Shown: positions 48,627-63,999 of the stretch, one piece after another
Numbering within the stretch: position 1 is the stretch's first letter
Layout of the letters: each line of letters begins with the position of its first letter
DNA from: Candidatus Cloacimonetes bacterium HGW-Cloacimonetes-3
GTDB taxonomy: Bacteria > Cloacimonadota > Cloacimonadia > Cloacimonadales > Cloacimonadaceae
NCBI GenBank assembly: GCA_002840645.1
Contig: PHBO01000001.1
Span: forward strand, 156,731 to 220,730
DNA: 64,000 bases
Reading direction: 5' to 3'
The notes under the pieces: model-generated
What the model saw: the letters and a program-made list of their open reading frames with translations, nothing else
Databases searched by the model: none
Told to the model about the DNA's origin: nothing
Position numbers and translations under genes: made by a program

Positions 48627-51600
48627 ATGCCTACTACCGATCAATTACGGTCTAAGCTGATAAATAAACTCAAAGAGCTGTTCCAACTCAATCAACCAGA
48701 TCTGGATTTTGGATTTTATCGGATTATGCATGCCAAATCTGAACAGGTCAGCAGTTTCATAGAAAATGACCTGTTACAGGTAATCCAGGATACCTTTGGA
48801 CAAGTGGATGAAACAAAGAAAGATAAGCTTAAGCAAGAACTGGACAATGCCATCCAGACCGCCATAGATTTTGGAGCACCAGACCCGGAAACAACTACTA
48901 AAGTAATAGAAGCTCGTGCTAAGTATGAAGCTATCAAAGATAGTGCTAGTTCCGAAGCCGAGATATATGACCACCTCTACCGATTCTTTGAACGGTATTA
49001 CGATGATGGAGACTTTATTTCCAGACGTTATTATACCAGAGAGACACCCGGTAAAGCAGCACCTTTCTCCATCCCCTATAACGGAGAAGAAGTAAAGCTG
49101 CATTGGGCAAATGCAGACCAATACTACATCAAGACCACTGAGTATTTTGCCAATTATGCAGTCAACCTGACCGAAGCTGTTAAAGGCTTGAAAGAAACCA
49201 AGAAGAAGAGTGATGAAGAGATTGATCTTGATGATAGCAGTGTGCCTGAAGGCTTAAAGCTGCACTTCCGCATCATAGATGCCACTGAGGGTGATCATGC
49301 CAACGTGAAAGCCAGTGATGCCACCAAACGCTATTTCCTCATACATAAAGCCAAACCAGTTGAGTTAAATGATAAGAATGAACTGATTATAAACTTTGAA
49401 TATCGACCTGACCAAGCAGGAGCTAAGCAGGATGCACTTAACAAGGACGCCTTATCGGCTATCATTTATGCCCTTAAGTTAGAGCCTTCTATGGCTGCAT
49501 ACTACGAGCATCTATCCCACAGAACTCCCACAGATAAAGATAAAGACAGAATCCTTCTGACCAAGTACGTAAACCAATATACAGCCCGTAATACGATGGA
49601 CTACTTCATCCACAAAAACCTGGGTGCATTCCTCAAGCGAGAGCTGGATTTCTATATTAAAAACGAGATAATGCGTCTGGATGATATCGAAAACGCAGAA
49701 GTTCCCAAGGTGGAAGACTACCTTTCTAAGATAAAAGTCCTGCGTAAAATCGCCATTAAGCTAATCGAGTTTATGGCTCAGCTTGAGGACTTCCAAAAGA
49801 AGCTCTGGCTCAAAAAGAAGTTCGTGGTTGAGACAAATTACTGCATTACCATCGACCGGGTACCTGAAGCACTATATCCCCAAATTATAGCTAATAAAGA
49901 GCAGATAGGTGAATGGATCAAGCTTTATGCCATTGATGAGATAGAAGCTGACACTACCTGTCCGGCTTTTACAAATCCTCCCACCCTGAACTTTCTCAAG
50001 GTTAACAACAAACTGATGCTGGACACACGCTTCTTTGATGATGCATTTAAAGCCAGATTAATAAGCTCCATACAGGATTTTGATGATAAGTGTGATGGGC
50101 TACTTATTCATAGCGAGAACTTCCAGGCACTAAATTTGGCTCAACAACGTCTATTGGGTCAAGTGACTTACATATACATAGACCCACCTTACAACACGAA
50201 TGAGGCAAGCTTTATATATAAGAACGAATATAAGCATTCATCATGGGGAACAATGGTTTTCAATTCCATCAACAAAAGCAAGCCTCTAATGAGTAGCAAT
50301 GGTCTAATTTCTATAGCAATTGATGACTTAGAACAACCATTTTTAGCTAACATTTGTGATGAGTTGTTTGGTATAGAAGAGAGACTCGGAACACTTGTCA
50401 TTGAGATTAAGCCATCCGGACGAACAAATGATAACTTCTTAGCCACTTCACATGAATACATCCTCTTCTATGGTTATAACTCTTCAGAGACTAAGATTTG
50501 TTTTTTCGAACTTACTGACGACCAAAAAAATCAGTACTTTGAGACTGACGATAGCAGTGCTTATAAATGGCGAGACTTTTTGAGAACTGGAGGATATTCG
50601 ACTCCTGAAGAACGCCCGAATTCATTTTACCCCATTTATTATGATGAAGTTACGGGTAAAGTTACACTAGAAGAAACAGAAGGCTATTTAAAAATACTAC
50701 CAATCGATAGTGAAGGAAAATTCAGGGTCTGGAGAAAAACACCCCCATCATTTCTTGAACATCTAAATTCTGGTGAGATAAATATCAAGAAGAGCATTAA
50801 TGGACAATGGAAAGTACAAATAATCGATCGTATAAAACAGGGAACGAGACCAAAAAGTGTTTGGGTTGGGAAAAAATACGATGCTGCCTCACATGGCACA
50901 AAACACCTAAAACAGTTGTTTGGTAACTCTGCTCCGTTTTCATTCCCTAAATCTGTTTTTGCTGTATCTGATTGCGTTTATATTGTTTCTGGTGATTCTG
51001 ACCTTGACCATGTTATCCTCGACTACTTTGCGGGTTCTGGCACTACTGGTCAGGCTGTTATCAACCTTAACCGTAATGACGGTGGAAATCGAAAATACAT
51101 CCTGGTTGAAATGGGTGATTACTTCGATACTGTTCTCAAGCCCCGGATCAACAAAGTGGTATATAGTAAAGATTGGAAAGAAGGCAAACCTAAGGATAGG
51201 GACACAGGCATTAGCCACTGTTTCAAGTATTTACGTTTAGAAAGTTATGAAGACACCCTGAACAATCTGGTTCTACAAAACGAGCCCATCAGAGATATAA
51301 CGCTTGCCGATAATGCATCGCTCCAAGAAGATTACATACTTCATTACATGCTCGATGTGGAAAGCAAAGGCAGTCAAAGCCTGCTAAATATAGACGCTTT
51401 CAATGATCCAACCTCCTATGCACTTAAAGTGAAAAAGCCGGGCAGTGACGAATACATAGAAAAAGCAGTGGATTTGATCGAGACCTTCAATTATCTGATT
51501 GGTCTTAGATTAGTGCATCTGGGGGTTCCACAAACGCTGACAGCAGCTTCCACTCGCGTGCCAGACCCTGATTTGCCCCAGGATCAGGATACCAAGCTGA

Positions 51601-51932
51601 TTATCAATGGAGATTTCAAACAGGTTGCAGATGGCAAATGGTGGATTCGCAAGGTAGAAGGCTGGGTTCCCAAGAATCCCTATAGTCCCAACGATGGTTT
51701 GAAAGAAAAGGTACTCATTGTCTGGCGCAAGCTGACCGGAAACCTGGAAGAGGATAACCTTATCCTGGACGCATGGTTTCAGAAGAACCGTATCAGTACT
51801 CTTGACTGGGAATTTGACACCATCTATGTAAATGGCAGTAATAATCTGCCTAACCTGCAACAGGATGGCGATACCTGGAAGGTACGGCTCATTGAGGAAG
51901 AATTTATGAAGCGGATGTGGGAGCAAAACTAA
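48627..51932 (+). CDS. Large Mod-like DNA N6-adenine/N4-cytosine methyltransferase (type III-like)
   Basis: YIYIDPPYNTNEASFIYKNEYKHSSW (motif IV) before DYFAGSGTTGQAVINLNR (motif I): beta-class order. Confidence 0.88.
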   Translation: MPTTDQLRSKLINKLKELFQLNQPDLDFGFYRIMHAKSEQVSSFIENDLLQVIQDTFGQVDETKKDKLKQELDNAIQTAIDFGAPDPETTTKVIEARAKYEAIKDSASSEAEIYDHLYRFFERYYDDGDFISRRYYTRETPGKAAPFSIPYNGEEVKLHWANADQYYIKTTEYFANYAVNLTEAVKGLKETKKKSDEEIDLDDSSVPEGLKLHFRIIDATEGDHANVKASDATKRYFLIHKAKPVELNDKNELIINFEYRPDQAGAKQDALNKDALSAIIYALKLEPSMAAYYEHLSHRTPTDKDKDRILLTKYVNQYTARNTMDYFIHKNLGAFLKRELDFYIKNEIMRLDDIENAEVPKVEDYLSKIKVLRKIAIKLIEFMAQLEDFQKKLWLKKKFVVETNYCITIDRVPEALYPQIIANKEQIGEWIKLYAIDEIEADTTCPAFTNPPTLNFLKVNNKLMLDTRFFDDAFKARLISSIQDFDDKCDGLLIHSENFQALNLAQQRLLGQVTYIYIDPPYNTNEASFIYKNEYKHSSWGTMVFNSINKSKPLMSSNGLISIAIDDLEQPFLANICDELFGIEERLGTLVIEIKPSGRTNDNFLATSHEYILFYGYNSSETKICFFELTDDQKNQYFETDDSSAYKWRDFLRTGGYSTPEERPNSFYPIYYDEVTGKVTLEETEGYLKILPIDSEGKFRVWRKTPPSFLEHLNSGEINIKKSINGQWKVQIIDRIKQGTRPKSVWVGKKYDAASHGTKHLKQLFGNSAPFSFPKSVFAVSDCVYIVSGDSDLDHVILDYFAGSGTTGQAVINLNRNDGGNRKYILVEMGDYFDTVLKPRINKVVYSKDWKEGKPKDRDTGISHCFKYLRLESYEDTLNNLVLQNEPIRDITLADNASLQEDYILHYMLDVESKGSQSLLNIDAFNDPTSYALKVKKPGSDEYIEKAVDLIETFNYLIGLRLVHLGVPQTLTAASTRVPDPDLPQDQDTKLIINGDFKQVADGKWWIRKVEGWVPKNPYSPNDGLKEKVLIVWRKLTGNLEEDNLILDAWFQKNRISTLDWEFDTIYVNGSNNLPNLQQDGDTWKVRLIEEEFMKRMWEQN

Positions 51933-54900
51933 TGGCTCGCAAAACAAGCTTACAGAACCATAAATTCTCCAATAAACTGCTCCTTAACCAGTGGTTGATG
52001 AGTCAATTTGGAATTGACCCGCTCTTGGAATATAAGGATAATACCCGACCATTTCACAAACTTGCTGCACCCATCAGAGATAACCGCATGGAGGGTTATG
52101 ATACGGACGGATTACACCGTTTTTACCATGAACTGGTGAATAGCGAGCTATTTTACAATGAGCTCCATCCCATCAGCAAAGAGCAGCTACGCATCTATGA
52201 GGAAAACATCGTCTCGCATACCAGAACTATAAACTACTTACGTAGTAGACCTATTGTCTGGAAGTACTTTCAATGGCTAACTCTGCTTTTTGTGGAAATC
52301 TATCTGGATCGTTATTTTACCGATAAAGCAAAGCTGCTGGATGATCTGAATGTCTATCTAAAGAGGTTTAATGAAAAGTGGACTGGCTTTCAGAATCTTG
52401 AGCCATACTCTTTTGATGATCTGAATAAGTTATGTCTGCAAAACGCAACGGGAAGCGGTAAGACCCTGCTGATGCATGTTAACCTCTTGCAGTTCCGGCA
52501 TTATGCCAAAAAGACTCGTGAGGGAAGTGAGATATCCAGGGTAATCTTGCTTAGCCCCAATGAACGGCTTAGTGAGCAGCATTTGGAAGAGCTAAAGATT
52601 AGCGGTTTCTATTCTGCCCAAAGGCTAAAAACCAAGCAAGACGGCAGCATTGATATGGTCGATGTAATCGAAATCACCAAACTCGGTGATACCGAAGGAC
52701 CAAATACAATCGCCACCAGAAGCCTTGGGGATCAAAACCTGCTATTGGTTGATGAAGGGCACCGGGGGATGAGCGGAAAAGATGAAGGAGTGTGGTTCAC
52801 AAGAAGATCAGAACTATGTGCCAAAGGCTTTACCTTCGAATATTCTGCCACGTTTGCCCAAGCTGTTGCCGCTGCGAATAACAGAGCATTTGAGGATAGC
52901 TATGCCAAGACCGTGATCTTCGACTATTCCTACAGGTGGTTTTACGAAGATGGATTTGGCAAGGACTACCAGATATTGAACCTGCCAAAAACCTATCAGC
53001 AGGTGCAGGATGTGTATCTGACTGCCTGTCTACTCAAATACTATCAGCAACTCAAAGTCTATGAAGATAAGAAACTGGAAATTGTCCCATTTAACTTGGA
53101 AAAACCTCTGTAGGTCTTTGTGGGTAGTACTGTTACCAAGAAAAAGGGTAAACAAGAGGTTGAGCTCCCCAGCGAGGAGTTACTCTCGGACGTGGGGCAG
53201 ATTATAGTCTTTATCGCTAAGTTCCTGAGTAACGATGCTGTTTTCCAAAAGAGCATTGAGAAGATCCTCTATGACAATGGCAGCAGTACCGGGCTGCTCG
53301 ACGATGCAGGCAATGACATCTTTGCAAATTCATTCAATTATCTCCTCAAGACCGCTAATTCTACTGATAACATTTCCGAGATTTATCACGATATTCTGAA
53401 GACACTGTTCAACAACCCAGCCGGAGGACAACTTAGCTTGGCAAGGCTTAAGGGAGATTCCGGTGAAGTCGCTTTGTATCTCGGCAATAGCGACACACCC
53501 TTTGGTTTGATCAATGTCGGAGATGCCAAGGGTTTGTGTGATCACATAGAAGAGACTGCCAAACACAATGATATACAGTTAAATGTGGAAGATAGCGATT
53601 TTACAGAAGCGATGTTTGCTTCAGTGAAGGATTCCTCATCTCCCATCAACCTATTGATCGGGTCTAAGAAGTTTGTCGAAGGGTGGGATTGCTGGCGTGT
53701 TAGTACCATGGGTTTGATGCATGTCGGTAAGAGCGAAGGAACGCAAATTATCCAGCTATTTGGGCGCGGTGTGCGCTTAAAAGGGTATGAGTGGAGTCTG
53801 AAGCGCAGTGGGCATACTTATGCCACCACAAAGCCTGGATTCATTGAAGATATCGAAACCCTGAATGTCTTTGGCATCGAAGCTGACTTCATGGATAAAT
53901 TCAGACAATTCTTACGTGATGAAGGCTTGCCTGGCAACGAGAAAAGGCTGGTTATAACAATCCCGATGAATGTGACTGCTGATTTTGGCAAAAAGCTAAA
54001 GATACTACGACCTAAAAAGAAGAAAGACGGCACTGAATACGATTTTAAGAAAGACGGACCAGTACCCACTATTGGCAATGTACCTCAGTATCTGCAAAAG
54101 AATCCTGTAGTATCGGACTGGTACCCCCGGATTCAAACCATCAAGTCACGAGGCACACTGCAAGATGGTCAAAAAGACGAGGTAATACTAAAGAGTAAGC
54201 AGATAAGCCTTCTGGATATGGATCGCCTGTATTTCGAACTTGAACGTTTCAAACGGGAAAAAAGCTGGCACAACCTCAATCTCAGCAAACAGGGGATTAT
54301 CAGCTTGTTATCAGATACATCCTGGTATCGGCTATTCTTGCCTGAAACAAGGCTCATGCCTCAAAACTATGATGAAGTGCTCATCCTTCAACAAATAGCT
54401 ACTGAACTGGTAAAGCGATTCTGTGAGAAGTACTATAATTTCTGCAAGAAGTCTTTTATCGAACCTCGACTGGAACTAAGAGAACTGACTCCTGATGATG
54501 ATAACTTGCCTTCTGATAAAGAATATCAGTTGATTGTGGATGGCGATGATATCCATGTAATCGAAGGGATTAAGAAGCTGAAAGATGAGATCATTGTTAA
54601 GAAAGACCAGCTTCTGCATGTAGGCGACCTCAAAGCCTGCAACTTTGGCAATCATCTTTTCCAACCCTTGTTTCATGTGCGTCATGGCGGGAACATCACG
54701 ATCTTGCCAGTCTCTTTTAACGAGAGCGAATACCAGTTCATTACTGACCTGAAAGCATGGTGCGATAAGAATCATAAGGATATGAAGGATAAGGGAAAGG
54801 AGTTATATCTTCTCCGCAATCTAAGTCGGGGCAAGGGAGTGGGCTTCTTTGAAGCTGGTAACTTCCATCCCGATTTCATCCTCTGGGTTCTTTCTGAAGG

Positions 54901-55168
54901 CAAACAGTATGTTCACTTCATTGAACCACATGGACTGATGCATGAAGGGATCAACAGCGAGAAAATCCAGTTCCACAAGCGCATCAAAGAGATAGAGGCA
55001 AGGCTGGGTGATCCCAATGTTATCTTGAGTAGCTGGATATTGTCTGCAACTCCCAAACAAGAGCTTAGTCTCCGTGGGTATGATCCAGATGAGTATCTGA
55101 AGAATAATGTGGTGTTTATGGAAGACCAAGACACTTATGTTTCAATGATTATTAAACGGATGAGATAA
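51932..55168 (+). pseudogene. Type III restriction Res-like DEAD helicase, interrupted by an in-frame amber codon at 53111-53113
   Basis: LQNATGSGKTLLMHVNLLQF, LLVDEGHRGM in 5' half; VEGWDCWRVSTMGLMHVGKSEGTQIIQLFGRGVRLKG in 3' half; both halves in the same frame, ...NLEKPL-TAG-VFVGSTVTKKK.... Confidence 0.85.
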
Positions 55169-55244
55169 CAAAATGACAGATAGAAGACTTTATGAGATAC
55201 CCATGAATCTTGTATAAGTCAGTCTATGAAAAAGGAGCATTTAG

Positions 55245-56654
55245 ATGACAGAATGGGGAAGTCAAATACTAAAGGTTGGTCCTAAAATTGATTTTAATGC
55301 TAAAAATCCTGATCAGGTAACTGCCGAAAATGTCACAGACACAGAAACACAAAAGAACCAACTTATCGATCAGTATAGAAAGAACATTGAACCATGGTTA
55401 TCATCTCTATTTCAGAGTGAACACTTATCTCTATTAATCGGAAGTGGATTCACGACTGCCATAGCAAATAAATGCTGTTGCACAGCTCAAGGTATGGGCT
55501 ACGATGAGACCAAATTTCCCGAAACTCATAGAGTGATTCTTGATAAACATACAAAAGAAACAGCTAAATCTATCCGGTTAAGTGATCCAAACATTGAAGA
55601 TCAAATCCGTGTGTTAAGTCAATCCATTGATGGTTTAGAGGCTCTTGGTGATAGCGTTAATGCAGAAGCATTTAAAACTTCATTAAACGAATTGATATCA
55701 TCTTTTTTATCAGGATTACTTAAGACTGAGTGTGGTATAGGAAAAAAGCTGTTTGAGTCGATTGAAGAAGGTCCCATTAATACACTGATCCCATTTCTAA
55801 TGAGCTTTGCATCGAGAACCGCTTCCCGCGAAAGGTTGAATTTGTTTACAACGAATTATGACCGGCTTATTGAATTGGGCTGTGATGCTGCGGGAATAAG
55901 AGTTTTAGACCGTTTCGTTGGATCTTTAGAACCAGTTTTCAGGTCATCACGTCTTGATATTGATATGCATTATAACCCTCCTGGTATAAGAGGAGAACCG
56001 AGGTATTTGGAAGGAGTTGTGAGACTTACAAAATTGCATGGCTCTCTGGATTGGCGATATGACACAGACTTAAAAGTAATAAGGAAAGTCGGGTTACCAT
56101 TCGGAGTTGATACTGTTGTGAATCCCCTCCCTACTAATCCGGCTTACAGTGTGATGATTTATCCTAATCCTATGAAAGATCGAGAGACTGCAGAATATCC
56201 ATATGTGGAATTGTTTCGAGATTTCGCTGCAGCCGTGTGTAAACCTAACGCTACCTTGGTGACTTATGGTTACGGATTTGGAGACGATCATATAAACCGT
56301 ATTATCTCAGACATGCTGACAATCCCATCAACTCATTTACTAATTATCTCTTACGACAAATCAGATGATAGGATTAAACATTTCTATGAAAAACAGGGAT
56401 TTGAATCTCAGATATCGTTATTGATAGGTTCACATTTTGGTGACATCTCTACATTAGTTGAACAATATCTCCCGAAACCATCAATAGATCGCATTTCTAA
56501 CAGGATGTTTGAGTTGTTAAGTAAGCGTATCAACTGTAAGGAAAAAGCTCCTGAAGTAACTGAACATATTGCTGTCGATCAAGATATCACTCAAAAAACA
56601 GATCAACCTGAAACCATCATAATCCCCACAGTAGATGATGATGTCCCATTTTAG
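55245..56654 (+). CDS. SIR2-like domain protein (SIR2-HerA system) with SSB-like C-terminal tip
   Basis: LLIGSGFTTAIANKC; LFTTNYDRLIELGCDAAGI; LTKLHGSLDW; LVTYGYGFGDDHINRII; ends PTVDDDVPF*. Confidence 0.85.
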   Translation: MTEWGSQILKVGPKIDFNAKNPDQVTAENVTDTETQKNQLIDQYRKNIEPWLSSLFQSEHLSLLIGSGFTTAIANKCCCTAQGMGYDETKFPETHRVILDKHTKETAKSIRLSDPNIEDQIRVLSQSIDGLEALGDSVNAEAFKTSLNELISSFLSGLLKTECGIGKKLFESIEEGPINTLIPFLMSFASRTASRERLNLFTTNYDRLIELGCDAAGIRVLDRFVGSLEPVFRSSRLDIDMHYNPPGIRGEPRYLEGVVRLTKLHGSLDWRYDTDLKVIRKVGLPFGVDTVVNPLPTNPAYSVMIYPNPMKDRETAEYPYVELFRDFAAAVCKPNATLVTYGYGFGDDHINRIISDMLTIPSTHLLIISYDKSDDRIKHFYEKQGFESQISLLIGSHFGDISTLVEQYLPKPSIDRISNRMFELLSKRINCKEKAPEVTEHIAVDQDITQKTDQPETIIIPTVDDDVPF

Positions 56655-56663
56655 GAGTTTACA

Positions 56664-58793
56664 ATGAGAACACCAATGTCTGAGTATTCAAGCCGTCTTG
56701 TTGGAACAGTAGATGGTGTTTCACCTGACGAGATTGTTGTTCTATTGGATACAGATGCACCTCAATCTACAGCTTTAAATACTGGCACTCCAACTGCATT
56801 TCCTCAAGTAAATGGTTATGTTTTGATACCAAATCAATCTGGTGCTATTGTCGGCTTAGTTTACTGGTTAGGAATAGAAAGATCTCCATATCCAAAGCGA
56901 AAAGGATATTCTGATTTTGGGCTAATTGACCTTCCCTTCCCGTTACGAAAATTAAAGATAACTCCAGTTGGAACACTTGTCTCTAAAAGAGGCATCGAAA
57001 ATAAATGGAAACTGGAAAGAGGTGTCTTTACTTTCCCATCTATCGGGGATAATGTTGTTATACCTACACCAGAGCAGATTAAAGCAATTGTTACTGGTGA
57101 AGAAGACCAAGCCCATGTAACTTTAGGTACTTGTCCATCAGCTTTTGATGCAGACGTTAAGATCGATCCCAACATACTTTTTGGGCGCCATTTAGCAATT
57201 CTAGGTAATACGGGAAGTGGCAAGTCTTGTACTGTCGCTTCAGTTGTACGATCAATGCTTGTGCAATCTCGTGATAAGCATAAAGATGGGAATGAGCCAA
57301 ATGCAAGGTTTATTTTCTTAGACCCTAATGGAGAATACTCAAAGTGTTTTAAGGATATTTGCCCCAATGTTAGAGTATTTAGACCTGAACCAAATGCAGA
57401 TGATATACAAAGTGGGATTGAGCCATTTTCCCTTCCAGCTTGGATGTGGAACAGTTCAGAATGGTCTGCCATTGCACAAGCAGCACCTAGAATACAAAGG
57501 CCAATGCTGCAAGAAGCTCTTAGAAAACTAAAGTCTGGCAGTAACAGTACCTTTGACATACTTGGAAGAATGCGGATTAGATGCGGCTTTTTTGTCACAA
57601 GTAATAGTCGATTTATTGGGCAAGGTACAAACAGCTTTCAATCAAACAACTCATTTGGTCAGAGTATCGAAAGACTAGTCGAAGACTTGAATTGGTACAA
57701 AACTTCGCTTACTGATTCTGATGTTACTCAAGTTGAACTATGTATAACATCAATTGAAGCTATTCGGGGGCAGCGTAGGTGGACAAGTCAAAACAGTGCT
57801 GGATATAATGGTTTCGGCGACACAGAAGTTCAAACAGTAATTAATGCTATCGACACATTAATGGCTCATTTTCCCATAACTGATAACGAGTTAGTTGTAA
57901 ATGAGGACTCACCTGTTAAATTTGACATTAGGTATTTACCTGAATCATTAGAGGAAATATCGAGAACTGATACCGGTAACGCTCAGCAATTCATATCGAC
58001 GTTAATTGTTCGGATCAAGTCACTTTTGAATGACCAAAGAATATCATCCGTTATTGCATCAGAAACATGCACTCTTGAAAGCTGGCTTGAAAACACTATT
58101 GGAAAAGATCAATCAAGTAATGGACAAATAGCTGTGATTGATTTGTCGTTAATTCCATACGAAGTACTTCATCTAACTATAGCAGTAGCAGGTCGAGTAA
58201 TCTTTGAGGCACTTCAACGTTACATGAAACATAACAAAGTTAGCCTTCCTACATCTTTAGTTCTCGAAGAAGCACATACATTTGTTTCTAAGCTCTCATT
58301 TCAGGGAGATGAGATACCGAATCCAGCCGCTATGTGCCGTTTTACATTTGAACGAATAGCACGAGAAGGGCGTAAATTTGGTTTAGGGTTAATTGTTTCT
58401 TCACAACGACCGTCTGAGATTTCAGAATCAGTACTATCCCAATGCAACACATTTATGATACATCGAATAACTAACGATAAAGATCAAGATGTTATTAATC
58501 GACTTGTTCCAGATACAGCTAGAGGATTACTTAGAGAATTACCTAGTTTGCCTACAAGGCATTGCATTATGCTCGGAGCAGCAGTTAAAATACCTGTAAT
58601 GATTGAGATACCAGAACTATCAAAGGAAGTACGACCTCAATCAGAAGACCCTAAATTTTGGGAAGTGTGGACTGGAAATGTCGAGCGTCAGATCAATTGG
58701 AAAGCAATTGCAGATGACTGGCAGGGTATTCATCCTCTCTCTGAAGAAAATGTTCAACAAGAAGAAACACCAGAAGACGATGTCCCATTTTAG
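56664..58793 (+). CDS. HerA/DUF87-like ATPase with SSB-like C-terminal tip
   Basis: HLAILGNTGSGKSCTVASVVRSM; FIFLDPNGEYSKCF; LVLEEAHTFV; GLGLIVSSQRPSEISESVLSQCNTFMIHRI; ends TPEDDVPF*. Confidence 0.9.
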   Translation: MRTPMSEYSSRLVGTVDGVSPDEIVVLLDTDAPQSTALNTGTPTAFPQVNGYVLIPNQSGAIVGLVYWLGIERSPYPKRKGYSDFGLIDLPFPLRKLKITPVGTLVSKRGIENKWKLERGVFTFPSIGDNVVIPTPEQIKAIVTGEEDQAHVTLGTCPSAFDADVKIDPNILFGRHLAILGNTGSGKSCTVASVVRSMLVQSRDKHKDGNEPNARFIFLDPNGEYSKCFKDICPNVRVFRPEPNADDIQSGIEPFSLPAWMWNSSEWSAIAQAAPRIQRPMLQEALRKLKSGSNSTFDILGRMRIRCGFFVTSNSRFIGQGTNSFQSNNSFGQSIERLVEDLNWYKTSLTDSDVTQVELCITSIEAIRGQRRWTSQNSAGYNGFGDTEVQTVINAIDTLMAHFPITDNELVVNEDSPVKFDIRYLPESLEEISRTDTGNAQQFISTLIVRIKSLLNDQRISSVIASETCTLESWLENTIGKDQSSNGQIAVIDLSLIPYEVLHLTIAVAGRVIFEALQRYMKHNKVSLPTSLVLEEAHTFVSKLSFQGDEIPNPAAMCRFTFERIAREGRKFGLGLIVSSQRPSEISESVLSQCNTFMIHRITNDKDQDVINRLVPDTARGLLRELPSLPTRHCIMLGAAVKIPVMIEIPELSKEVRPQSEDPKFWEVWTGNVERQINWKAIADDWQGIHPLSEENVQQEETPEDDVPF

Positions 58794-58838: not shown

Positions 58839-59810
58839 ATGAGTAGAGATGAGTTAATTGAATATGCATTACAATCAGATATTATGAAAAATTGGCATTA
58901 CTTTCAGTTTCACTTTTCGTTTTATCATAAAGAGATGGAGCATGAGTTATGCAAATCTATTATTAACAGTTGTATATCATGTGAGTTAAAAATTGAGGGT
59001 ATAGCGAAGAATTTTATTGATAGGATAGCATCAATCAATGGTAGAGTAAAACAACAATCAGATTATGAACAGCTACTGCAGATACTCGCTGAGTTACTTA
59101 TAGTCGAGAAAACTCTTTCTTTTGAATGGGAAAACGTAAGAGAGTATAAGCATGAACCGACCACTGGAGAATCTAAAAAGAATCCCGAAGTAAACATAGT
59201 TACAGATAACTACACAATTGGTGTAGAGGTCAAAAGTCCTAAGATAATAGATCATATGAATGTTAGAGCAAGCAACCCATTCCAATTACCTGCACGAAGC
59301 CCAATAATCGATTTTTATGGAAAAGAACATACTACTCTGCCTAGGGATAACCCTGTAAAAGACTTTCTGATAAGTGCTGACGAAAAGTTTAAAAGCTTTA
59401 AAGAAACAATTCCGAACTATTATGGCGTGCTAGTTATTGTCTGGGATGATTACATTTACGAGCCAATTTCATCTTTGCTCTCTGAAGGCTCAGGTCTATT
59501 TACGGAAGCATCATTCTATATTGACACAGATAAGAATGCGGTAAAATTTCCGAACATTGATTGTGTAGTTTTAACCAGACACTTACTTCAGATAATTCGT
59601 GGAACTAGGGGTGAGCCATTACCAGATGAGGTTAAAACTCCCTTGGAATATGGGGATAAGACTATTTTCCCATTTAAAGTGCATATTGTCAACCCAGCAT
59701 CTAGTGTAACAATTCCAGATGAAGTTATACAGTGCTTTCAAACACATGAACCTTCTTTTATGCTTGGTGCCGAATATAGTCCAACAGATCAAATAACTTG
59801 GTTCAATTGA
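58839..59810 (+). CDS. Hypothetical protein, possible PD-(D/E)XK nuclease, third gene of the SIR2-HerA locus
   Basis: NPEVNIVTDNYTIGVEVKSP: D-Xn-ExK-like core; co-oriented, 45 nt downstream of herA. Confidence 0.5.
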   Translation: MSRDELIEYALQSDIMKNWHYFQFHFSFYHKEMEHELCKSIINSCISCELKIEGIAKNFIDRIASINGRVKQQSDYEQLLQILAELLIVEKTLSFEWENVREYKHEPTTGESKKNPEVNIVTDNYTIGVEVKSPKIIDHMNVRASNPFQLPARSPIIDFYGKEHTTLPRDNPVKDFLISADEKFKSFKETIPNYYGVLVIVWDDYIYEPISSLLSEGSGLFTEASFYIDTDKNAVKFPNIDCVVLTRHLLQIIRGTRGEPLPDEVKTPLEYGDKTIFPFKVHIVNPASSVTIPDEVIQCFQTHEPSFMLGAEYSPTDQITWFN

Positions 59811-59919: not shown

Positions 59920-60435
59920 TTAGTTTAAGCATCGTCTTCCACCTAAGCGATTCAAACCCCGGAGTTGACCCAATATACCTTTCTGGACTTTTCTGCCGAT
60001 TTTGGGCACGTTTTGGCGGGAAATAACTACATATATGAAGCCTCTCAGATCAACGACCTCAATTGATGCCAATGCCTCCAGATAGATATAGACCCACTGT
60101 CTGGATTTACCTATGTCTTGTGCAATATCTCGGATTGACTTGTATCTGCCTTGTTCCAGGATGTCCAGAAGCCTGTGGGCATCTGCTATGCTGAAAGTCC
60201 ATCCCCTGTAGTGCTGATAGCCTATTCTGGCTTGGTAGCGGTTGGCTCGGACATATATGGGAGGACTATCTTCTATCTGTTTGATTGCCCGACCTTGAAT
60301 CAGTTCAGACAATGTCTGATCTATGATGTCTGCTTCAATACTGGTTAACTGAGCTATTACATTAGCATTGAAAGGTCGATCATACTGATTGATGAAGTTG
60401 AGGATTAGTTCTTTGTCCGTCATACTGCCCTCAAT
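59920..60435 (-). CDS. Small HTH-containing protein of the transposition module
   Basis: MIEGSMTDKELILNFINQYDRP...YKSIRDIAQDIGKSRQWVYIYLEALASIEVVDLRGF resembles an HTH; follows the transposition ATPase. Start uncertain (listed ORF extends to 60465). Confidence 0.5.
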   Translation of the reverse strand: MEGSMTDKELILNFINQYDRPFNANVIAQLTSIEADIIDQTLSELIQGRAIKQIEDSPPIYVRANRYQARIGYQHYRGWTFSIADAHRLLDILEQGRYKSIRDIAQDIGKSRQWVYIYLEALASIEVVDLRGFIYVVISRQNVPKIGRKVQKGILGQLRGLNRLGGRRCLN

Positions 60436-61141
60436 CATCCAAATCGGCTTGGGTGACCAGTTCAAGGTTCTTGTAAATACCTATCTCCTCTACTGAGCGA
60501 ATAAGCTTCATGGCTTTTCGGACATTACCGCAGGAGTGGAAGTGGACATATTCGACAACATCCGGATGGAACTTGATTTCCAGAATCTCACTGCATAACT
60601 GGGCAACATCCTTCTTGGGCAGGTCTTGGAACTCATAGAAGAAATTGCATCTATCGAAGTAATACTCATTGATCTGGTTGAGCTTATCCTTGGCATTCTG
60701 CATCCCGACCAGGATCACTATCGATGTGGTCTCATCCACGATATCCCTGATCGCACCTAAGAGCTGTGGGTGTCGGAAGGCATAGTCTATCTCATCCACC
60801 ACTATGATCGTATCACGATGATCTTCCAGTGTCGACAAGCACAGCATAAAGAGGTCATTAGCTGTACCGTATGGTACATACTCTCCCAGGCCAAATCTCT
60901 TGTATAAGGCTAAGAGTAGCTTGGAGGCAAATGCCTTGGGTGTGGTTGTTGCTTCCAGTCTGAGATAGACATAACCCTTACTGAAAGCAATCCGGTTCGC
61001 ATACGTGGTCTTACCCAGACCTGGTCTACCATACAGCAACCCGAGCCCGACCATCTCCAGTTTGGGTCGATTCAGGAGGTATTCAATGCATTTATCGGCT
61101 GCGATTACGTTCTGAGTCCTGACTAGTTTTCCTTGTTTCAT
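60431..61141 (-). CDS. AAA transposition ATPase (MuB/TniB/TnsC-like)
   Basis: LGLLYGRPGLGKTTYANRIA; DTIIVVDEIDYAF; immediately downstream of a MuA-like transposase. Confidence 0.8.
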   Translation of the reverse strand: MKQGKLVRTQNVIAADKCIEYLLNRPKLEMVGLGLLYGRPGLGKTTYANRIAFSKGYVYLRLEATTTPKAFASKLLLALYKRFGLGEYVPYGTANDLFMLCLSTLEDHRDTIIVVDEIDYAFRHPQLLGAIRDIVDETTSIVILVGMQNAKDKLNQINEYYFDRCNFFYEFQDLPKKDVAQLCSEILEIKFHPDVVEYVHFHSCGNVRKAMKLIRSVEEIGIYKNLELVTQADLDD

Positions 61142-61150
61142 TATTACCTT

Positions 61151-63715
61151 CTAATTGGTTATCCCGATTCGTTTGAGTAGTTCTGCTCTGGATAGATGTG
61201 CGAACGGTGACTGCTCTTTCTCTTCCTCATCTTGTTTTTGCTTATACACTTCCATGTTCTCTGTTTTGTTGAGAGTGATATTCGATTGATCTCTCTCTTC
61301 AGCTATAGGACTTGCCTCATCGGTTGTTGCAGTGCCAATTTGATCTGCGGAATCTTGTTCTGTTAAGGCTGTTTGTTTCGATTTGTAATGCTCTCTCGCT
61401 GTCTTACTGAAGGCTATCTTCATAGATATGGGCATTTCACCATTGCTGTCATTATAATCTAGTCCTATCCTCTCAAAGGAAGCCCTGATCTCTTGCTCTA
61501 TTATGCGATTTATCTCTATTTCTGCCAGTCTCTCTTTCTCCTTAGCATCAAGCTGTTCCCGCTCTTCAGGACTCAGCATATCAGGATGCTTCGGCAGGTT
61601 CATCATCGCCTTTCTGGTCATCTCTTCGATGATCTCATCACTATCCCTTGGTGGAGCCTCCAGCATGGGAGGACTGTTGAAGATTGCTCTGGCACCCTGA
61701 TCCTCAAGTTTCTCTTGCTTGGCTGTTGATGTACCCAAGATTCTATCAACTGCCTTCTGTGAGTTCACTACCAACTTCTTGGCATTGCGTTCTTTCTCTC
61801 GTCGGAGTCCCTTGATCTCGTTGTATTCTTTATTGAGTTCCTTATGCGATACTGCCTTATCCATCGAGACTTCAATGAACGGATGTTGCGTCTTCCGGAG
61901 AGCTGCCTGGCAGATGAAGACATCGTTCTTATCATAGACCACGATCCATCTGGCATCACTGTAATCGAATCTGATAATACAGGGCTGTCCCACATGGTTC
62001 ACCATGTCCCGATGCCAATAAACCTTCTTATCTAGTCTGATGCCTTCACTACGGATGTTCTTGCGTTCCATTGCCATCATCAGGAAGTTCAGCTTAGAGA
62101 TCTCCACTTGTCGATTCTCAGCTATTCTGGCTGCACTGAAGACCTCGTAAGGAGTCCGTCTATTGAGTGAAGTATGCGGAGTCTCACCATAACAGAATCG
62201 CACATAGAAGGCGATCATCTGCATTGTCTCTTCAATGGTAGGTGGCTTACCGGTATAGAGCTTCTTAGCCCACTTCTCGTTGCGGTGTAGCACTGATGGT
62301 TTATCTGCAATTGATGCTCCTCTGAAGGTGGTAATGAACCTCTCAAACTGTTCCTGGAAGGTCTTGAAGAAGCGTTCGATCACCTTGGCTTTGGCATTGT
62401 AGCTTTCTGCGAATCTTACCCCAATATTGAGCCGGGGGAAGATGCCTCCCAGTTCCTTGTTTAGATCATGTTCTTCCCAACTCTCATGAAAGAGTTTGGC
62501 TCGGAAGGCTTTACCATTATCCAGATAGACATACTCCGGCAGTACTGCCATCGTTCCGCTATTGTTATCAGCTATCTGAGAGCAGTTGATGAAACCGTTG
62601 CGGAAGGCGGTGAGGATATGCTGGCTATCTTCAGTAAAGGCGAGTGAAGCTCCCACCGGATATCTGCTTGCCCAGTCCATCACCATGATCATCGTCATAC
62701 GCTGTGCTCTTCCGGTCTGAGGATTGAGAATATCAAAGGAGAGGGTATGTCCATCCGCTACCCATACCTGTCCCACAGATAAGCTGCTATCATCTCGCAT
62801 AATGGTCTTGATGATCCGCTCCGAGACGAACTTACTGCCATCTCTGGCTTGATGCCATTCTGCAGGATGCCTGGCAGCCCATTCCTCGCACCAGCGTCTG
62901 AGCGTCCGTTCATTGGTCTCTGATTCTATTACTTTGTTTCTGGACATCTGCTTGAGGTTAGTAATGGCAGAGCCGATCTTGATCCGATTGGGATTGAGTA
63001 GCAGATGCAGCAGATAGTGTTGTTCCTGAAAGGTGATCTTACGTTCTTTATACTTGCCCTTACTCTTATGTATCAGGGCATACATATCCAGCTTATTCTC
63101 AAGGTAGATATTGAGCCACTCTCGCAGTGCTCTCTCCTTCCGTGGTCCTTTGAGGTTGTAGAGCTCCGGCACCAGTCTCTTGGTGTTATAGTCATTGGTG
63201 ATGCGTTTCCAGGCTAGTGTCCTGGAATCTACTCCATGCAATCTGCGGTACACTTCCTGGCAGAATCTGCCATAGAGCTGAGCCTCATCTTTGAATAGCA
63301 GCCTCTCCTCTTCCACAGGAGCCAGATCAAGGAATTCATTGGAGAAATCAATCACCACATCATTATCACGGGCTTCGTGGATCAGAGTGAGCTTGCGTTC
63401 AAAGTCCAGATAGTCTTCATACGTCTCATAGACTGTCTCGGACTCCAGATTATCTTCTGAACTATCTGCTTTAGCGTTATACTGCTGGCTGTAGGCAAGC
63501 ATGTAGCTGTTGTCGGCGTCAGAATCTGAACCATTGCCTTCATCTTTACCACTAACCTTGCCTAATCCAGCCTTAACCACAGGAACCACTATACATCTGC
63601 CTCCACTCTTGATTTCCAGCTTCAGTCCCTGGCTTTCCATCAGTTCTTGCAGTTCATTCAGCTTATTGCGATATTCTCTCAGGAACTCCTCAGTCGGTCT
63701 GCCGCTATAGGGAAA
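61151..63715 (-). CDS. MuA/TniA-like DDE transposase
   Basis: rve-fold VWVADGHTLSFD...VYLDNGKAFRAKLF...KAKVIERFFKTF (D, D, E). Start placed at 63715 because GGAGG lies 7 nt upstream of that ATG. Confidence 0.85.
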   Translation of the reverse strand, partial: FPYSGRPTEEFLREYRNKLNELQELMESQGLKLEIKSGGRCIVVPVVKAGLGKVSGKDEGNGSDSDADNSYMLAYSQQYNAKADSSEDNLESETVYETYEDYLDFERKLTLIHEARDNDVVIDFSNEFLDLAPVEEERLLFKDEAQLYGRFCQEVYRRLHGVDSRTLAWKRITNDYNTKRLVPELYNLKGPRKERALREWLNIYLENKLDMYALIHKSKGKYKERKITFQEQHYLLHLLLNPNRIKIGSAITNLKQMSRNKVIESETNERTLRRWCEEWAARHPAEWHQARDGSKFVSERIIKTIMRDDSSLSVGQVWVADGHTLSFDILNPQTGRAQRMTMIMVMDWASRYPVGASLAFTEDSQHILTAFRNGFINCSQIADNNSGTMAVLPEYVYLDNGKAFRAKLFHESWEEHDLNKELGGIFPRLNIGVRFAESYNAKAKVIERFFKTFQEQFERFITTFRGASIADKPSVLHRNEKWAKKLYTGKPPTIEETMQMIAFYVRFCYGETPHTSLNRRTPYEVFSAARIAENRQVEISKLNFLMMAMERKNIRSEGIRLDKKVYWHRDMVNHVGQPCIIRFDYSDARWIVVYDKNDVFICQAALRKTQHPFIEVSMDKAVSHKELNKEYNEIKGLRREKERNAKKLVVNSQKAVDRILGTSTAKQEKLEDQGARAIFNSPPMLEAPPRDSDEIIEEMTRKAMMNLPKHPDMLSPEEREQLDAKEKERLAEIEINRIIEQEIRASFERIGLDYNDSNGEMPISMKIAFSKTAREHYKSKQTALTEQDSADQIGTATTDEASPIAEERDQSNITLNKTENMEVYKQKQDEEEKEQSPFAHLSRAELLKRIGITN

Positions 63716-63999
63716 CATCCGAACCTCCAGCTTTCTCATTACCAGACGCAATTGAGTTGTTACCATTCTCATAATAGACCAGGAAGACACTGGGATAGCT
63801 ATGCTCGCCCAGATCGATCACTTCCTCAAAGTACAGCTCCGGTTTGCGCAGGCTATCTCTGAATCTGTCATACTCAGCCTGAATGATCTCTTCCGTTGCC
63901 AGCACAAAGGTCTTGATCGTAGCTCCGTTCTTGGTTGGTATCTGATGCTTGAGTGCGGTTAGCTTCCCGGCATCCACCATTCTTCTGATCGTCTTGAGA
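63705..63999 (-). CDS. N-terminal DNA-binding component of the transposition module (5' truncated by window end)
   Basis: Frame open to the window edge (...LKTIRRMVDAGKLTALKHQIPTKNGATIKTFVLATEEI); overlaps the transposase start (ATG inside gATGTTTCCCTATAG). Confidence 0.6.
   Translation of the reverse strand, partial: LKTIRRMVDAGKLTALKHQIPTKNGATIKTFVLATEEIIQAEYDRFRDSLRKPELYFEEVIDLGEHSYPSVFLVYYENGNNSIASGNEKAGGSDVSL

Follow-up and report, generated by a model that had tools for sequence, protein, structure and literature searches.

The SIR2-HerA locus

The window analysed here is a 64,000-nucleotide (nt) stretch of contig PHBO01000001.1 (positions 156,731 to 220,730) from Candidatus Cloacimonetes bacterium HGW-Cloacimonetes-3, phylum Cloacimonadota. 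It contains a SIR2-like effector gene that adjoins, in tandem and on the same strand, a gene for a HerA ATPase, the arrangement that marks SIR2-HerA anti-phage systems. Both genes matched curated PADLOC defence models with very strong scores (Table 1). NCBIfam equivalogs matched the pair as well, but with scores far under the cut-off, and the pair is therefore placed in a divergent subfamily.

The two proteins end alike. The SIR2 C-terminus is ...IIIPTVDDDVPF-stop at 56654 (TVDDDVPF), and that of HerA is ...QQEETPEDDVPF-stop at 58793 (TPEDDVPF), as a sequence-only reading of this DNA had reported. The last residues of each fit [DE]DD[IVL]PF and match the tip of the host single-stranded DNA-binding protein (SSB), and neither has a match to an SSB family or an OB fold in a Pfam search.

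Table 1. Features of the SIR2-HerA locus and its upstream neighbours (aa, amino acids; ORF, open reading frame)
Feature	Position	Strand	Evidence or remark
SIR2 effector of the SIR2-HerA anti-phage pair, 469 aa	55245..56654	+	PADLOC SIR2 PDLC04079 E=1e-169; Pfam SIR2_2
HerA ATPase/translocase of the SIR2-HerA pair, 709 aa	56664..58793	+	PADLOC HerA PDLC04098 E=2e-263; Pfam DUF87
SSB-like tip DDDVPF and stop, SIR2	56634..56654	+	Sequence; host SSB ends SDDVPF
SSB-like tip EDDVPF and stop, HerA	58773..58793	+	Sequence; such a tip on 4 of 48 HerA C-termini, separate gains
27-nt 3'-end repeat, SIR2 copy	56628..56654	+	Last 15 nt the same as in the HerA copy; family D2
27-nt 3'-end repeat, HerA copy	58767..58793	+	85% identity to the SIR2 copy
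Type III methyltransferase (Mod), upstream neighbour	48627..51932	+	PADLOC MTase_III E=9e-210
Type III restriction subunit (Res), one in-frame TAG at 53111-53113	51917..55168	+	Two same-frame ORFs matching consecutive parts of PDLC03654
Type III Res and SIR2-HerA stretches	window 48627-58793; L015:1-6136; L016:3-6133; L094:4357-11001		

Rarity of the ending in the host genome

The host genome (2.68 Mb, 32 contigs) has a single SSB match, located elsewhere than SIR2-HerA. Its C-terminus is ATSDDVPF, so the comparison with the host ssb gene that the sequence-only reading had proposed shows a host tip, SDDVPF, that matches those of SIR2 and HerA. GAYRTNCCNTTYTRR occurs seven times in the 2.68-Mb genome, four times with a true stop: at the ends of ssb, SIR2 and HerA, and at one site outside any ORF of at least 60 aa on that strand. 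A whole-genome search for D[IVM]PF-stop gave the same three genes as the sole gene ends, with one further site that ends no gene. A composition-based estimate puts [DE][DE]xPF endings at about 4e-5 per gene, and the probability of two adjacent genes with the tip by chance is therefore negligible.

The likeness extends to the DNA. The 15 identical nt that had been noticed at both termini, GATGTCCCATTTTAG (56640-56654 in SIR2 and 58779-58793 in HerA), are indeed present, and they form the end of a longer, 27-nt repeat with 85% identity. Given the same peptide and the codon usage of the window, five identical codons (D, V, P, F and stop) have a probability of about 0.008, which makes it plausible, if unproven, that the 3' end was copied between the SIR2 and HerA genes or homogenized by gene conversion. 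A SIR2 tip found only here, beside a tip-bearing HerA, would fit a late copy, one that may have given each complex 18 tips in place of 6.

Repeated gain of the tip in HerA

The nine nearest homologous loci (44-58% identity), which include members of Bacteroidota, Chlorobiota, Bdellovibrionota, Thermodesulfobacteriota, Bacillota and Gammaproteobacteria, have no tip in SIR2 or HerA, while the SSBs of their own genomes do carry it. The sequence-only reading had asked whether homologous pairs keep the motif, and had held that its absence from both proteins of close homologues would count against a function; literally that absence was found at all nine loci. The tip is thus not a general or ancestral feature of SIR2-HerA. 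It was also absent from the HerA family samples of three further phylum draws and from twelve plasmid loci of Proteobacteria and Actinomycetota (in one of these an insertion sequence element interrupts HerA), and no tip-bearing relatives were found in viral contigs. Conservation across SIR2-HerA was rejected as proof of function, most pairs being without the tip, and the case for function is built instead on independent gains.

An SSB-like tip (EDDVPF, DDDVPF, DDDIPF and DDDYPF) is carried by four of 48 HerA C-termini sampled across many phyla; among 39 sampled SIR2, the window protein is the only one with it. The tip of each of the other three HerA resembles that of the SSB of its own genome. 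G096, a genome of the same order as the window but of a different family, has a HerA (42% identity) that ends ITDDDVPF and an SSB that ends VTDDDVPF; its SIR2 bears no tip and ends KEDKDE. In G1360 (Pseudomonadota, 48%) HerA ends LDDDIPF, the SSB ends LDDDVPF, and SIR2 is again without the tip. The HerA of G1129, from another, more distant subfamily (27%), ends DDDYPF, with an SSB ending DDDIPF.

In a tree of the 48 HerA, built with a quick method and with some very distant rows unstable, the four tips require four gains, forced by well-supported branches, and the sister branches of the G096 and G1360 proteins are without the tip. A single ancestral origin of the HerA tip was rejected on this tree. 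G096 and G1129 were found through the HerA search; G1360 came from a scan for the tip and was left out of the chance estimate. The probability of at least two tips among the 46 HerA not picked by tip is about 1e-6 under a composition model, and still low, about 4e-5 by our own estimate, when the usual acidity of the tails is allowed for. A Bacillota HerA (L108) ends ...DADDVPWDDTLF, with a tip-like stretch that is not terminal.

The tip in other proteins

A scan for the pattern DD[VILM]PF-stop covered 124 genomes of the phylum, and second matches were fetched from the genomes having them. There is about one such ending per genome; nearly every genome has one, which was ssb wherever it was read. 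The genome of the window has three such gene ends, equalled by just one other, G060, which reaches three through two phage replication-type proteins. The other real genes beyond the main ssb were the G096 HerA, a second SSB (G066), an 87-aa piece that resembles a phage SSB tail (G090) and a Shedu nuclease, SduA (G092; PADLOC E=1e-99), that ends EISDDDVPF in a genome whose SSB ends VTDDDVPF. In G079 the tip lies on a doubtful 115-aa ORF. When SSBs, phage genes and doubtful ORFs are removed, four genes are left: SIR2 and HerA of the window, the G096 HerA and the G092 SduA. All four are anti-phage defence proteins. Second matches in G040, G094, G099 and G112 were rejected, as they are not the ends of clear genes; in G094 (L089, near 3073, - strand) an in-frame TITDDDVPF-stop lies just past the TGA that ends a short ORF and is a possible gene remnant.

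A partial scan of 249 Pseudomonadota genomes, part of whose matches were examined, gave a broader set. Among the matches listed, the carriers were the G1360 HerA, PcrA/UvrD-like helicases, a CHC2 zinc-finger (DnaG-type) protein, a phage SSB, an ArdC-like protein, a kinase similar to defence kinases, along with DUF6511 and another small protein, both present in many copies. These are mostly DNA-working or mobile-looking proteins, so in Pseudomonadota the tip is not limited to defence. The helicases (in L118, L121 and L123) have the tips ADDVPF, SDDVPF and SDDIPF. DUF6511, a mobile-looking family of unknown function, occurs in many copies per genome in several Pseudomonadota genomes (L145-L204), with ends of the form DD[VI]PF (for example L173:289-735 and L159:2810-3016). 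The kinase (L133:1726-2880) resembles PD-T4-6/mad6 defence kinases and ends DDDIPF or SDDIPF, as do two proteins without a family match, of 334 aa (L194:2066-3070) and 253 aa (L114:1247-2008).

Proposed docking on SSB partners and alternative explanations

Solved relatives of SIR2-HerA are 12:6 complexes whose trigger is listed as unclear (PMC12198126), and the chain counts of the solved relatives agree with that ratio. NADase activation and phage protection are known for these relatives only (PMC12198126). The SSB tip is described as a docking site for many genome-maintenance proteins (PMC7145534, PMC10164576, PMC10018359).

We give an even chance to the interpretation that both tails have convergently come to mimic the tip of the host SSB, docking SIR2-HerA on SSB-tip-binding proteins at replication forks and single-stranded DNA (ssDNA). 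A complex of roughly 12 SIR2 to 6 HerA would present up to 18 flexible tips. Host proteins with an SSB-tip pocket, for example RecO, PriA, RecG, RecJ and DnaG, could receive these tips, whose number would give avidity. The complex would thereby be kept where invading DNA replicates, at forks and sites of ssDNA processing. There HerA may load on DNA and trigger the SIR2 effector. What the sequences show is the residues themselves, their identity with the host SSB tip, their rarity in the genome, the repeated gain in HerA and the presence in Shedu; docking on partners is inferred. The sequence-only reading, which had suggested that the complex may recruit or titrate SSB-binding proteins or respond when phage SSB occupies the tips, is supported in part, with titration and a response to phage SSB as putative roles.

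Several points weigh against this interpretation. The tip is missing from 44 of the 48 HerA and 38 of the 39 SIR2. In the G096 HerA, a TAG lies in frame close to the N-terminal end. In AlphaFold models made from eight sequences the SIR2 and HerA tails are coil with a low predicted local distance difference test score (pLDDT), but this shows disorder weakly because the models are poor overall (mean pLDDT 51 and 45) and too weak to give the tails a position. Finally, an SSB-like tail on the Deinococcus protein DdrB is dispensable for radioresistance (PMC3834827).

Beyond this locus, mimicry of the host SSB tip may tentatively be seen as a general, convergently gained anti-phage module (at least four times in HerA, and in SIR2, Shedu and possibly others), serving either to station complexes at forks or as bait for phage proteins that need to bind this tip; we regard so broad a claim as possible but doubtful.

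The bait alternative, in which the tips lure phage proteins that need the host SSB tip (Red-beta/RecT-type annealing proteins or Orf-type mediators) and whose docking then triggers SIR2, is unlikely for the window pair. Its appeal is that the final seven residues of the host's SSB are read by phage annealing proteins in a host-specific manner (PMC10711431) and that phage SSB proteins set off several other defence systems (PMC13381803). A lambda Orf-family protein also binds SSB through the SSB tail (PMC4118853), the tips track the sequence of the host's SSB, and the trigger of SIR2-HerA is listed as unclear (PMC12198126). However, neither a phage of this host nor an annealing protein of such a phage is known here, the tip is absent from most SIR2-HerA, and host partners would permanently occupy a bait that binds their pockets.

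Self-inhibition seems quite improbable. Here the acidic tail with its hydrophobic anchor would fold onto the complex, in the HerA DNA channel or on a neighbouring subunit, and be freed by DNA entry, by analogy with Hfq, which is autoregulated by acidic tips (PMC5606850). The last 20 residues of HerA tails are commonly acidic (median net +3), but acidity would suffice for this and the exact host-SSB DD[VI]PF end would not be required; the tip on two different folds and on Shedu is also left unaccounted for. Least probable of all is a functionless origin, in which variable acidic tails end DDxPF now and then and in the window the end of one gene derives from that of the other: conservation is lacking in the tails, which are often acidic, the two 3' ends have 15 nt in common and all closest homologues are without the tip, but four separate gains among 48 HerA, two of them found without reference to the tip, and a phylum scan whose remaining genes are all defence genes argue otherwise. 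The earlier judgement that chance is a poor explanation is thus borne out by the per-gene estimate, the repeated HerA gain and the Shedu case.

The tip-bearing SIR2-HerA pair has partial parallels among known systems. The window pair is of Nezha type, with adjacent SIR2 and HerA genes matching PDLC04079 and PDLC04098 and solved relatives of 12:6, but differs from most sampled pairs in having the SSB-like tip on both proteins. The tips resemble the bacterial SSB C-terminus (DDDIPF) in the acidic run followed by V/I-P-F after a variable tail, with letters as in the host SSB; unlike it, they sit on a SIR2 enzyme and a HerA ATPase that have no OB fold. Hna, Hachiman, Nhi, Retron-Eco8 and AbpAB likewise tie SSB biology to anti-phage defence (PMC13381803), but these systems sense phage SSB, whereas in the window the defence proteins themselves bear the docking tip. 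DdrB is a reported case of an SSB-like C-terminal motif on a protein other than a canonical SSB (PMC3834827), but it is an ssDNA-binding repair protein and not a defence protein. A partial literature search found no published description of SSB-tip mimicry on defence proteins, which is not proof of absence. That defence proteins of unrelated kinds have repeatedly gained a host-SSB-like tip marks the SSB interaction hub as a likely site of recruitment or sensing, and suggests that defence complexes may plug into the host replication and repair hub.

Genomic surroundings

SIR2 and HerA lie downstream of a Type III restriction-modification pair (Table 1). The Res gene is divided by its TAG into parts of 398 and 682 aa that are otherwise continuous, and a related Res in L015 is a single uninterrupted ORF. 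Type III Res genes of three different PADLOC models lie directly upstream of SIR2-HerA in the window, L015, L016 and G096, a recurring pairing.

Pfam, PADLOC and NCBIfam gave no match for a 323-aa protein (58839-59810) encoded directly 3' of HerA; this protein may be part of the defence operon. Beyond it, on the - strand (59920-63790), a TniB-like ATPase, a Mu-transposase-C protein and a 181-aa partner make up a transposition module of Tn7/Tn5053-like type next to the defence island. On Rhizobium and Methylocella plasmids (L215 and L216), SIR2-HerA is followed immediately by SbcD and SbcC-like genes, and the start of sbcD overlaps the end of HerA.
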